From a virus, in the IMG/VR virus record IMGVR_UViG_3300034198_005192, positions 1-35,237 of that record: a stretch of DNA of 35,237 nt; one strand, written 5' to 3'. The notes under the pieces are model-generated. The model was given only the letters and a program-made list of their open reading frames with translations. It was not told the origin of the DNA and did not search any database. The first letter of the stretch is position 1. Every line of letters starts with the position of its first letter. Below are positions 29,756-35,237 of this stretch, piece after piece. The translations under genes were made by a program, and so were the position numbers.

Positions 29756-29770
29756 ATGCAAAAAGGGGGT

Positions 29771-29968
29771 ATGAAACTGGAAGAATACCTTTACATAAAC
29801 CGCATCCGCCCCGTCGATTTCGCAAAGGAAATCGGGGTTAACTTCGTGACGATCTACCGCACAATGAACGGTAGCTCGATCCCCCGCCCGAAGCTCATGC
29901 AAGCGATACATGCCAAGACTGAGGGCAAGGTCGGTCCTGCAGACTTCTACGCGCTTGGAGAGCCTTAA
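29771..29968 (+). CDS. Cro/CI-type helix-turn-helix regulator
   Basis: ATG 29771 (after AAAGGGGG) gives 65 residues; ATG 29756 is an alternative. The HTH is visible as VDFAKEIGVNFVTIYRTMNGSSIPRPKLMQAIHAKTEGKVGPADFY, the usual XRE recognition-helix pattern. It is short, like Cro. It faces away from the minus-strand early operon and likely controls the divergent region upstream. Confidence 0.85.
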   Translation: MKLEEYLYINRIRPVDFAKEIGVNFVTIYRTMNGSSIPRPKLMQAIHAKTEGKVGPADFYALGEP

Positions 29969-29969
29969 A

Positions 29970-30240
29970 ATGGCTTCTAGGGGGTATTTATACACAGACT
30001 GCGCTGCTCCCCCAGCGCATAGCCGCCGGTTGGCCCGCCTTGTCCCCACACAAGGTTCGAGCAACACAGCAGCCGGCGGCACCCTTTTCGACCCCGACGA
30101 CCAGGCGGGTATTGAAGCCCTGGTTATGAGGCCTCAACTTTACAATCCTGTTCGAAGTGTGAGGGAGAGTTTTGCTAAACCCTATATCCGCAAACTCACT
30201 CGACCTGGCGTAAAAACCGGGTCGGGCTTTTTTTTGCCAT
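29970..30240 (+). ncRNA. Hairpin-rich putative non-coding RNA ending in an intrinsic terminator
   Basis: This 270-base stretch has four stem-loops: GCGCTG/CAGCGC (30001-30018, loop CTCCCC); a long stem GCCGCCGG/CCGGCGGC (30022-30029 with 30073-30080) enclosing CCTTGT/ACAAGG (30038-30055, loop CCCCAC); CCTCA-ACTT with AAGT-G-TGAGG (30132-30164); and the terminator at 30199-30235. A 90-codon frame reads through it, but it would translate the terminator itself and gives no recognisable protein. C-rich loops could pair with ribosome sites. A regulatory RNA is inferred; a leader structure is the alternative. Confidence 0.45.
30199..30235 (+). terminator. Strong intrinsic terminator
   Basis: A stem of 8-10 bp (30199-30208 with 30217-30226) with an eight-base loop is followed by C and eight T (30228-30235). 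It closes the Cro-like/putative RNA unit. Confidence 0.9.
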
Positions 30241-30262: not shown

Positions 30263-30454
30263 GTGGGGAAAGTTCTAAGCTACTTCAAACGCCTTCTAAA
30301 GCTGTGGTTAGTACGCAGAGAGACAGCCCGCCTTAAAAGGTTTGAGCAAGCTGCGTTGGGAATTAAGCCGCAGTCCGGGACCAACAAATTACAGAACCGA
30401 AAAGCAAGCCAGAAGTTGCGCCATCCCATAACATATTATTCGCGGAAGCCATGA
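30263..30454 (+). CDS. Small basic protein, 63 aa
   Basis: GTG 30263 starts a highly basic protein (VLSYFKRLLKLWLVRRETARLKRFEQAALGIKP ... NRKASQKLRHPITYYSRKP) with an amphipathic N-terminal helix. Possible membrane or nucleic-acid contact. No family. A 4-nt overlap (ATGA) joins it to the next gene. Confidence 0.6.
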   Translation: MGKVLSYFKRLLKLWLVRRETARLKRFEQAALGIKPQSGTNKLQNRKASQKLRHPITYYSRKP

Positions 30455-30798
30455 AGCGCAGAAGATCAAAATATAACGCGGTTCGGACGGTCATTGGAAA
30501 CGTGGCCTTTCACTCAAAAGGCGAAGCGCATAGGTGGGTTGAGTTGAAGCACCTCGAAAACGCCGGACTGATTTTAGACCTCCGCCGCCAGGTTCCGTTC
30601 AAACTTTACGCCTGGGCACCCGAGGGCGAGAAGGTTCAAATTGGAATTTACAAGGCGGATTTTTGTTATCGGGACGCCAAGACCAACGAAGAAATTACAG
30701 AAGATTTTAAAGGGGTGGTAACGCCCCATTATCGCCGCACAGCCAAAATCATGGAAGCCAACTACGGCATCAAGATCAAGGAAACTAGGCGCACATGA
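30451..30798 (+). CDS. DUF1064 nuclease-like protein
   Basis: The product has 115 residues with the DUF1064 pattern: KYNAVRTVIGNVAFHSKGEAHRWVELKHLENAGLILDLRRQVPFKLY, then YKADFCYRD, EDFKGVVTPHYRRTAKIMEANYGIKIKE. The E-A-R...ELK and D-F-x-Y...E-D-x-K residues follow the restriction-endonuclease-like (Holliday-junction resolvase-like) fold. It may cut branched DNA during recombination or replication. Confidence 0.85.
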   Translation: MKRRRSKYNAVRTVIGNVAFHSKGEAHRWVELKHLENAGLILDLRRQVPFKLYAWAPEGEKVQIGIYKADFCYRDAKTNEEITEDFKGVVTPHYRRTAKIMEANYGIKIKETRRT

Positions 30799-31085
30799 AT
30801 GACGCAAGCCAGACCGGCATAACCCTTGAGTCTAGCGTGTATTTTTTAGATGTAAGCCCTAGAACTGAACGCGCTATCGAAAACGAGGGGCTTAAGACAA
30901 TCGGTGATGTTGTTGCCATCCCGGCTAAAGAATGGCTACGCGTTCCAAATTTTGGAACCAAGTCACTCAAAAACCTTTCGCGGGAGTTGGCGCGGCATGG
31001 GTTCAAATTAAGGGATATGCCAAGCCGCCGCACCCGCTGTCCTACATGCGACGGTCTTGGGCATATTTTAGGGGACACTCTATGA
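30795..31085 (+). CDS. Stand-alone RNA polymerase alpha-CTD-like protein with a CxxCxGxG zinc-type tail
   Basis: The product has 96 residues. Residues 17-73 (YFLDVSPRTERAIENEGLKTIGDVVAIPAKEWLRVPNFGTKSLKNLSREL) follow the RNA polymerase alpha C-terminal domain, including the helix-hairpin-helix PNFGTKSL at 51-58. The tail CPTCDGLGH (82-90) resembles half of a DnaJ-type zinc motif. The protein could compete with or replace the host alpha-CTD at UP elements or activators. The 4-nt ATGA overlaps on both sides place it in the rightward early operon. Confidence 0.85.
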   Translation: MNDASQTGITLESSVYFLDVSPRTERAIENEGLKTIGDVVAIPAKEWLRVPNFGTKSLKNLSRELARHGFKLRDMPSRRTRCPTCDGLGHILGDTL

Positions 31086-31234
31086 CCCAACGCTTGTCAA
31101 CTCAATACGCCAAGATGCTGAAGGACGTAAAATACTGCGTCCGCACTCACAAAATGACCAAAGCAAAGCGCAAAGAATTTGAAAAGCTGACGCTGCGCTG
31201 TTTGAAAAATGAGATCAGAAAGGGGATGCAATGA
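31082..31234 (+). CDS. Small basic protein, 50 aa
   Basis: ATG 31082 overlaps the previous stop. The 50 residues are lysine/arginine-rich (KMLKDVKYCVRTHKMTKAKRKEFEKLTLRCLKNEIRKGM). Two cysteines. No family. ATGA overlap with the next mini-gene. Confidence 0.58.
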   Translation: MTQRLSTQYAKMLKDVKYCVRTHKMTKAKRKEFEKLTLRCLKNEIRKGMQ

Positions 31235-31346: not shown

Positions 31347-31715
31347 ATGTGGACAAGTGACAACGTATATTCAGACCAAGAGAACGCGATTTTGCTAAAG
31401 GGGCTGGCAGAGGGTAAAACCATGCTCGAGATATGTGCGGATTTACCCCACAGAACGTTCCCCTCCATCCGGGGCAGATGCACTAAACTCAAGCTGAAAG
31501 AGCAGGACAAAAAGATCGACGCCTACTTCAACCGGCCTATCGACAGCCAGCCGCAGCCGAAGCGGGTTAAATGGACCGCGATTTGGTTTGAGAACGTGAC
31601 GAAGGAAGAAGCCCGCCAAGCAAGCTTTGGAGCGCCTAAGTCTAAGACCTTCACTAAAGGCCCGTCGCATCCAGGCTCGCAATACGGATGTTCTACAGGG
31701 GATCTTTCAGCGTGA
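31347..31715 (+). CDS. Myb/GcrA-like DNA-binding protein
   Basis: ATG 31347 follows GAGGGG. The N-terminus YSDQENAILLKGLAEGKTMLEICADLPHRTFPSIRGRCTKLKL is a Myb/SANT-like three-helix motif of the GcrA type, with the R-x-x-R-K/C helix that reads DNA. The remainder is basic and low in complexity. A transcription regulator role is likely. Overlaps the next gene by 4 bases at GTGA. Confidence 0.72.
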   Translation: MWTSDNVYSDQENAILLKGLAEGKTMLEICADLPHRTFPSIRGRCTKLKLKEQDKKIDAYFNRPIDSQPQPKRVKWTAIWFENVTKEEARQASFGAPKSKTFTKGPSHPGSQYGCSTGDLSA

Positions 31716-32149
31716 ACGCATACAAGAAGGTTACTAAATTTAGCGAGTACAGAGACAACCAGATCATCGACCCGGCTGAAAACAAAGCTCTATTGCATAC
31801 GCTTAAAAGGCGCATTGAGGTACAGGCCGCATCCATCACTAGACTTTGGGAAGCGTTGGAGGCTCAGAAAGAGATTTTGTCGCGTGTGGCAACGCCCGAG
31901 CGGTTGAATATTATCATCACCGAGGTATCAAAAAAACACGGCTTTGAGCCGTTAGATATAATTGGGCCGAGACAGCAAGCCCCCCTCGTAAGAGCTAGGC
32001 AGGAAGCTTATTGGCGCTGCGTAAAAGAAACCAAACTAAGCTACCCGGCGATTGGCAGAGCCTTTGGGAACAGGGACCACACGACAATTATGTGGGGGGC
32101 CAAACGCCACGAAGCCCGCATGAAACAGGTGAATAATGGCGCGACCTGA
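31712..32149 (+). CDS. DnaA domain IV-like replication protein
   Basis: GTG 31712 has an AGGGGA ribosome site and overlaps the previous stop; ATG 31688 is also possible. The product has 145 residues. A coiled N-part (ALLHTLKRRIEVQAASITRLWEALEAQKEIL) is followed by a DnaA C-terminal DNA-binding domain: LVRARQEAYWRCVKETKLSYPAIGRAFGNRDHTTIMWGAKRHEARM, with the GRDHTT signature that contacts DnaA boxes. There is no ATPase domain. It may bind an origin in the next gene or compete with host DnaA. Confidence 0.88.
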   Translation: MNAYKKVTKFSEYRDNQIIDPAENKALLHTLKRRIEVQAASITRLWEALEAQKEILSRVATPERLNIIITEVSKKHGFEPLDIIGPRQQAPLVRARQEAYWRCVKETKLSYPAIGRAFGNRDHTTIMWGAKRHEARMKQVNNGAT

Positions 32150-33077
32150 TTCATGGATGCCGTTCTACATTAGCGATTGGATGGTCAAGACGGGCGATTT
32201 GACGGCGGAAGCCAGGGGCGCTTATGTCGAGCTTATTTTTGCCTATTGGCGGACAGGTAGGCCATTACCCGATAACGACGAGAAGCTTCAGAGGCTTTCC
32301 AGGTGTACGGATAAGGAATGGCAACGCTGCCGAGCCGAGGTAATGGCGTTTTTTAATCTTGGCGCGGGCGGTTGGCAGCACAATCGGATTGATGAGGAGC
32401 TTGCCAAAGCCAATGCCAAGTACGATGCCAAGGTTAAGGCAGGGCAAAAGGGATCACATAAGCGATGGCAAAAGCATATCACAGCTATAGCAGAACCATT
32501 GGCAGAAGCATTGGCAACACCATTAACAAACGGATGCACAACTCACAACTCACATACTCCTTACGGAGTAACAGTATCTAAAGATACTGTTCGCAAAACA
32601 CGGAGGACACGCCTTGCAAACGATTGGAAGCCTAGCGAAGCAGATCACGCCGTTGCAATCGGGGAAGGACTCAGCCCCGACGAAATTGCCGCAGACCTTG
32701 CAGAATGGCGGGAATACTGGACAGGGCCAGAACCTCGAGACCCCCTCAAAACCGATTGGTCGCGGACTTACCGCAAGCACGTTAAGCAATTTGCCTCCGG
32801 TATCATTGCCCGCCGCGCTCGCCAAGGACAATCCAAAGCAAACGCTGGAGTGCGTCAAAGCCTCACTGCCGCCACAGATTCGATCCTCGCTAAAGCCGGT
32901 TTTCGACAAGCTGCAAGCGATAACCCACTACGACCTGACCGGAACACATGGCCCGAGGGAGATAACCCAGGCGCGGGATATTCTGGCCCAATCCTTGACG
33001 CCGATCACTGGGACGGAGGCGCTTGGACTGTTGAAAGAACTGAAGGCGACGACAAGGCCGACGCCGGGCACAACTGA
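32136..33077 (+). CDS. DUF1376 replication-initiation-like protein
   Basis: The product has 313 residues. The N-terminal DUF1376 domain shows WMPFYISDWMVKTGDLTAEARGAYVELIFAYWRTGRPLPDNDEKLQRLSRCTDKEWQRCRAEVMAFF. A low-complexity linker carries tandem repeats and inverted repeats at DNA level (32490-32591). A second helical domain (NDWKPSEADHAVAIGEGLSPDEIAADLAEWREYW) follows, as in phage replication proteins. It likely initiates replication together with the DnaA-like protein. The gene overlaps the next one in another frame. Confidence 0.82.
   Translation: MARPDSWMPFYISDWMVKTGDLTAEARGAYVELIFAYWRTGRPLPDNDEKLQRLSRCTDKEWQRCRAEVMAFFNLGAGGWQHNRIDEELAKANAKYDAKVKAGQKGSHKRWQKHITAIAEPLAEALATPLTNGCTTHNSHTPYGVTVSKDTVRKTRRTRLANDWKPSEADHAVAIGEGLSPDEIAADLAEWREYWTGPEPRDPLKTDWSRTYRKHVKQFASGIIARRARQGQSKANAGVRQSLTAATDSILAKAGFRQAASDNPLRPDRNTWPEGDNPGAGYSGPILDADHWDGGAWTVERTEGDDKADAGHN
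32490..32591. other. Candidate replication origin inside the DUF1376 gene
   Basis: Three tandem 12-bp units (GCAGAACCATTG-type) lie at 32490-32525, then CACAACT twice with a third variant at 32537-32558. Two perfect hairpins follow: TACTCC/GGAGTA (32555-32570) and AACAGTATC/GATACTGTT (32570-32591, loop TAAA). The cluster falls in a flexible linker region. Lambda has its origin iterons inside gene O, so the layout is comparable. Inference. Confidence 0.5.
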
Positions 33078-35024: not shown

Positions 35025-35237
35025 GTGATCTTGCGCTGTCACTTGTCAGCGAACAGATCGAGCAGCCCAAGTCTGGATTTATCTTTGAGCCTTTCACATG
35101 GGGAAATGACAAGGTTCTTCACCCACAACGGAAGGGACCGCGTAATCTCAGGGACGTAATCCCGCCAGGTAAGGGTAGGTTTTCTAAAGGGCCAAAAGGT
35201 GATCTTGAGTACTTAGACCGCATTCGAAACGGTCAAC
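35021..35237 (+). CDS. 5' part of the MptE/DUF115-like gene (continues at base 88 through the circular junction)
   Basis: GTG 35021 follows a TGA in the same frame, so no earlier start exists. The frame runs to the window end (VSDLALSLVSEQIEQPKSGFIFEPFTWGNDKVLHPQRKGP, then RDVIPPGKGRFSKGPKGDLEYLDRI) and continues at base 88 of the window to 977. The joined product has 368 residues. AAGG at 35007-35010 is a modest ribosome site; coupling to the 14-residue leader may help. Confidence 0.8.
   Translation, partial: MSDLALSLVSEQIEQPKSGFIFEPFTWGNDKVLHPQRKGPRNLRDVIPPGKGRFSKGPKGDLEYLDRIRNGQ
35151..35237. repeat. Right copy of 87-bp terminal direct repeat
   Basis: Identical to bases 1-87, base for base. 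See the left copy for the reading-frame argument that the genome is circular or circularly permuted. Confidence 0.95.

Follow-up and report, generated by a model that had tools for sequence, protein, structure and literature searches.

Bacterial activators and UP elements converge on the C-terminal domain of the RNA polymerase alpha subunit (alpha-CTD). T4, through Alt and ModA, and phiKMV-like phages, through Rac, modify or cleave host alpha; these proteins are not copies of the subunit, unlike the 96-aa protein described here. In E. coli, the alpha-CTD contacts DNA through R265 and N268 (PMC11434276; PMC3828302), and replacement of N268 by T, A, W or D impairs activation (PMC11434276). Two further papers present Alt/ModA and Rac as phage proteins concerned with host RNA polymerase alpha (PMC2988021, PMC7552054). 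Closer in kind are three proteins of cultured phages that carry an alpha-CTD without the N-terminal domain (alpha-NTD), as the 96-aa protein does, but with other appendages and in other phage families: QDP42789.1 of Bacillus phage Goe8 ('RNA polymerase subunit alpha', 210 aa), gp24 of Microbacterium phage Morrill ('DNA binding protein') and gp23 of Ruegeria phage V16 ('HTH-domain containing protein' or 'pyrophosphatase'). These proteins are annotated but unstudied; a literature search that included few subscription journals returned no paper on free phage alpha-CTD proteins, and the terms alpha-CTD and helix-hairpin-helix are absent from a review of jumbo phages (PMC7824862). V16 gp23 (L089:4911-5777, 288 aa) has its alpha-CTD at the N-terminal end and bears the RefSeq name pyrophosphatase; no MazG match was found in it by Pfam at an E-value of 0.1. 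Among cellular proteins, the uncharacterised PRK07758 (NF005841, a model of ~95 aa) is likewise a stand-alone alpha-CTD-like protein, however the 96-aa protein scores only 19.0 bits against this model, whose cut-off is 115.

The window, meaning the whole 35,237-nucleotide stretch analysed, is IMG/VR record IMGVR_UViG_3300034198_005192. The features that surround the alpha-CTD gene are as follows:

29756..29968, + strand: Cro/C1-type HTH-like gene at the start of the rightward arm (HTH_3 E=0.013, below cut-off; weak matches to several PHROG HTH families)
30199..30236, + strand: intrinsic-terminator-like hairpin and T run between the first HTH gene and the operon (10-pair stem, TTTTTTTT); the total count of terminator-like hairpin sites is no higher than in shuffles
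30263..30454, + strand: first ORF of the operon, 63 aa, without a family
30451..30798, + strand: upstream, coupled DUF1064 / phage Holliday-junction-resolvase-like gene (PF06356 E=1e-14; phrog_190 E=6e-27)
30795..31085, + strand: stand-alone alpha-CTD gene, 96 aa, ATG start (Pfam PF03118, AF2 model, ATGA overlaps on both sides)
30822..31013, + strand: alpha-CTD domain, residues 10-73 (alignment with 61 distinct phage and six RpoA sequences; pLDDT)
31038..31064, + strand: single C-terminal zinc-knuckle-like motif CPTCDGLGH, residues 82-90 (direct reading; low pLDDT)
31082..31234, + strand: next coupled ORF, 50 aa, its start overlapping the alpha-CTD gene stop
31688..32149, + strand: downstream DnaA C-terminal-like replication gene (PF08299 E=2e-15)
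32136..33077, + strand: downstream DUF1376 / primosomal-like replication gene (PF07120 E=5e-23; phrog_3992 E=6e-38)

ATGA overlaps join the alpha-CTD gene to both neighbours, as in translationally coupled genes: the ATGA at 30795 combines its start with the stop codon of the DUF1064 gene, and the one at 31082 combines its own stop with the start of the next ORF. The ORF is a real gene, and neither it nor its domain match is attributable to chance. Following the HTH gene at 29756 and the hairpin at 30199-30236, the coupled chain runs into the DnaA-C-like and primosomal-like genes and looks like an early rightward operon. The ORF at 31347-31715 (122 aa) resembles GcrA/SANT proteins by eye over its first 50 residues; it was rejected as a GcrA-like partner, Pfam giving no such match in the window and a GcrA-like gene near the alpha-CTD gene being found only in L016 (4936-5202, ~0.7 kb upstream). 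Further along, the ORF at 33875-34495 matches phrog_3704 ('ferredoxin', moron category; E=1e-10) and has a 47% identical relative in L020, which also bears an alpha-CTD.

The record ends in an exact 87-bp direct repeat (1-87 = 35151-35237), and a separate contig, L171, 95-99% identical to it, crosses its end directly into its start. On these grounds the record, though classed as linear, represents a complete map that closes into a circle of 35,150 bp. On it, the alpha-CTD gene precedes the gene for the terminase large subunit by ~6.9 kb, on the same strand. The large terminase protein is ~50% identical to those of HTVC010P-type Pelagibacter phages and a Methylophilales phage. The alpha-CTD gene is accessory: the 29 records whose terminase is related all lack it (many of these records being fragments). 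Immediately before the terminase genes comes a gene with ParB-N and N6/N4 DNA methylase domains (1092-2336). Its 41% identical counterpart in L070, another phage with an alpha-CTD gene, likewise precedes the terminase.

The 96-aa protein is a genuine free-standing alpha-CTD homologue in a virus of bacteria. Pfam RNA_pol_A_CTD (PF03118) matches residues 10-65 above its gathering threshold (E=7.2e-9, 35.7 bits vs. a cut-off of 23.8), and the generic HHH_5 model falls under its cut-off (E=0.048). The RpoA models of NCBIfam match residues 10-77, with cut-offs of 227-523 bits that are far from reached, and alpha-CTDs lead the phmmer matches among PDB sequences. A profile built from 57 phage homologues retrieves RpoA chains down to 2e-5, followed by one weak helicase HhH at 3e-4. 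Identity to the RpoA CTD is 28-38% within the aligned domain. The AF2 model has a pLDDT of ~90 over residues 11-70 and low confidence in the tail; the best 50 matches listed for it by Foldseek, and likewise by VIA, are all RNA polymerase alpha chains, with VIA Z-scores up to 13.0 over 67 residues and the Caulobacter alpha-CTD on AT-rich DNA (9zum) among the matches. No HhH DNA-repair family of the RuvA/UvrC type appears among the structural matches listed by either program. The sequence-only reading had taken the protein for a stand-alone alpha-CTD and not for another helix-hairpin-helix protein, and both the homology searches and the structure comparison, in which the matches listed are alpha-CTD and not another such family, bear this out. 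The ORF and the two motifs on which that reading was built are present, PNFGTKSL at residues 51-58 and CPTCDGLGH at residues 82-90; the alpha-CTD pattern placed at residues 17-73 is there as well, however the match begins at about residue 10 and the positions of N268 and E302 are occupied by R and N.

Compared with bacterial RNA polymerase alpha-CTD (PF03118; Caulobacter 9zum, E. coli 1lb2 and 3n97), the protein shares the fold, the HMM match and the residues R265, N294, G296, K298 and S299, which the alignment places at R23, N52, G54, K56 and S57. It differs from RpoA in lacking the alpha-NTD, in the changes N268R and E302N, in the loss of most of the sigma and activator surfaces and in an additional Cys-Cys-His tail; the N-terminal dimerisation and assembly domain has no place in a 96-aa ORF with coupled neighbours at both ends. 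Its net charge of +2 is unremarkable against -3 to +1 in host alpha-CTDs. Of the DNA-contact positions of alpha-CTD, which meet the minor groove (R265, N268, N294, G296, K298 and S299, with E302 as a further one), the protein thus keeps five. Changes on the DNA face are N268R and E302N, and C269 is replaced by A; those at the sigma-contact positions (258-261) are D258Y, D259F and E261D, and those at the activator-contact positions (285-288 and 315-318) are T285P, E286A, V287K and R317M. Every one of the 61 distinct phage homologues has R265, and 48 of them have N268; both residues fall outside the two search patterns used to collect these sequences, whereas the high conservation of positions 286-302 is not taken as evidence because those patterns partly created it. 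A small number of the other phage sequences likewise have arginine at position 268; one of them is L048, apart from this a very near match to host RpoA. A largely kept DNA face combined with largely lost sigma and activator surfaces fits a part that binds DNA better than it fits a copy intended for recognition by host activators.

The tail motif CPTCDGLGH is a single CxxCxGxG-type knuckle with a Cys-Cys-His set. The zinc-type tail, which the sequence-only reading proposed might be the phage-specific binding part, is real as a sequence motif. A DnaJ-type zinc finger has at least two CxxCxGxG motifs, and the 96-aa protein has one. None of the other alpha-CTD homologues compared carries the CPTCDGLGH tail; CxxC motifs are present in the appendages of L027, L032, L036 and L077, but none of these has a tail of this type. 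A search of viral contigs identified single RCPxCxGxGH knuckles in other, unrelated small phage ORFs, all of which lack an alpha-CTD. The tail may act as a zinc-linked dimer or partner-binding part.

Scanning viral contigs with two short patterns yielded 70 IMG/VR loci encoding 61 distinct proteins, and by this survey the 96-aa protein belongs to a broad, little-studied set of phage alpha-CTDs. The 70 ORFs span 81-273 aa, all of them short, with no complete rpoA among them; PF03118 matches every one of the 52 full-length proteins scanned, and an appendage of at least 30 aa on one side is present in 53 of 57 complete proteins. Partner domains include Sigma70_r4 (two proteins), DUF551 (three), HTH types, a Mor-like HTH and RHH. 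Sigma-70 region 4 is fused to alpha-CTD in L036:5581-6201 (Sigma70_r4 E=5e-10) and L076:4821-5483 (7e-6), HTH or Mor-like domains in L022, L030, L032 and L042, and RHH in L074. Free alpha-CTDs were also found in the cultured phages Goe8, Morrill and V16 introduced above. In the tree, the 96-aa protein groups with the phage sequences L017 and L011 (local support 0.82-0.85). All six RpoA sequences are nested within the phage diversity, which is what repeated capture would produce, a suggestive pattern drawn from 66 aligned columns and only six RpoA sequences. Judged from close pairs, phage alpha-CTD genes are under purifying selection, with dN/dS of 0.10-0.48 in 13 of 14 informative pairs and 0.94 in the remaining one. 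Plasmid tblastn matches were discarded as kin, those annotated or read being full-length RpoA, and two scans of genome contigs found no prophage copies.

Late regulators are often located just upstream of terminase genes. In six of the 12 records with a clear terminase (L016, L017, L036, L038, L042 and L070), the alpha-CTD gene precedes the terminase by 0.1-3.3 kb on the same strand. Random placement gives this arrangement a probability of ~1e-4, but the distance limit was set post hoc and the independence of the phages is incomplete. The record analysed here is not among these six. DUF1064 has one match among 77 loci and was therefore rejected as a constant partner; DnaA-C has three.

The best reading of the 96-aa protein, on which confidence and doubt are evenly divided, is a DNA-binding promoter adaptor or regulator, a function that we infer. 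The captured free alpha-CTD would work as a small DNA-binding module, its R265-type face binding A/T-rich DNA upstream of promoters, while the Cys-Cys-His tail would pair with a second copy or a partner protein and so supply the tether normally given by the alpha-subunit linker; transcription by host RNA polymerase at the phage's own promoters would thereby be set or strengthened. Relatives could be tethered instead by extra helical sequence, by helix-turn-helix domains or by sigma region 4. An adaptor role had been one of two functions suggested by the sequence-only reading, and it gains indirect support from relatives in which the alpha-CTD is joined to sigma region 4 or to a helix-turn-helix domain, and from the invariant R265. 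The appendages of most complete relatives, the purifying selection and the position shortly before the terminase in six records also speak for the adaptor or regulator. Counting against it are N268R, E302N and the change of C269 to A, the poorly modelled tail, the location among replication and recombination genes instead of near the terminase, the accessory nature of the gene, and the weak DNA binding of isolated alpha-CTD. The other suggested function, a decoy or competitor that would lower early host transcription by occupying UP elements or host activators, is weakened and now appears improbable. It would suit the position in an early operon and the precedent of T4 and phiKMV-like phages in targeting host alpha, and the kept R265, K298 and S299 could compete at UP elements; however, the activator (T285P, E286A, V287K, R317M) and sigma (D258Y, D259F) residues are not kept, and the variable appendages of the relatives would be superfluous in a pure decoy. 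The adaptor or regulator is favoured over the decoy because most of the DNA residues are kept and most of the surface for sigma and activators is gone.

The same combination of surfaces would also suit a helper in replication or recombination, in which the alpha-CTD fold serves the neighbouring genes, and not transcription, as a non-specific helix-hairpin-helix DNA clamp. The gene lies between a DUF1064/resolvase-like gene and the DnaA-C-like and primosomal-like genes, as such a clamp might, but the scarcity of DUF1064 and DnaA-C matches indicates that these neighbours do not travel with alpha-CTD, and the domains fused to alpha-CTD in relatives include sigma region 4 and HTHs of the transcription type; we regard this role as rather unlikely. 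Very improbable is an antitermination or anti-sigma type factor, whose zinc-like tail would act on RNA polymerase with the alpha-CTD only as a DNA anchor: the operon does come after the terminator-like site at 30199-30236 and single RCPxCxGxGH knuckles do occur in other small phage proteins, but the tail is on no other alpha-CTD homologue compared. Extending the adaptor or regulator reading to the whole set, it is tentatively proposed that phages repeatedly captured alpha-CTD as a plug-in promoter module, tethered by sigma region 4, HTH, helical or zinc-knuckle parts, to give miniature initiation factors through which host RNA polymerase would come to prefer phage promoters; the 96-aa protein would be this module in minimal form, with a tail that dimerises through zinc.

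The occurrence of free alpha-CTDs with other small parts in many unrelated phages suggests a little-studied way to steer transcription. If phage alpha-CTDs are indeed free and re-tethered, this would be a distinct strategy of transcription takeover beside the modification or cleavage of host alpha, and the alpha-CTD/sigma-4 fusions would offer natural compact proteins for dissecting promoter recognition. These proteins constitute an annotation blind spot, as PHROGs has almost no family for them: only three of 57 match one, of unassigned function. Two phages have more than one alpha-CTD domain: G023 (the record of L054) has two matches ~0.4 kb apart, and in G010 (the record of L025) two partial matches fall in a second ORF. 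In L014, L021, L061 and L065, the alpha-CTD is preceded or followed by a common unnamed segment resembling DxFAxxAMxxxL...AYxxADAMLxxR. Non-RpoA models of NCBIfam are also matched by the phage proteins, namely PglW (NF033442) by 12 of 52, PRK14906 (beta') by 24 and PRK07758 by 16, which suggests that a BREX kinase, some beta' subunits and an uncharacterised small protein also make use of alpha-CTD-like domains.
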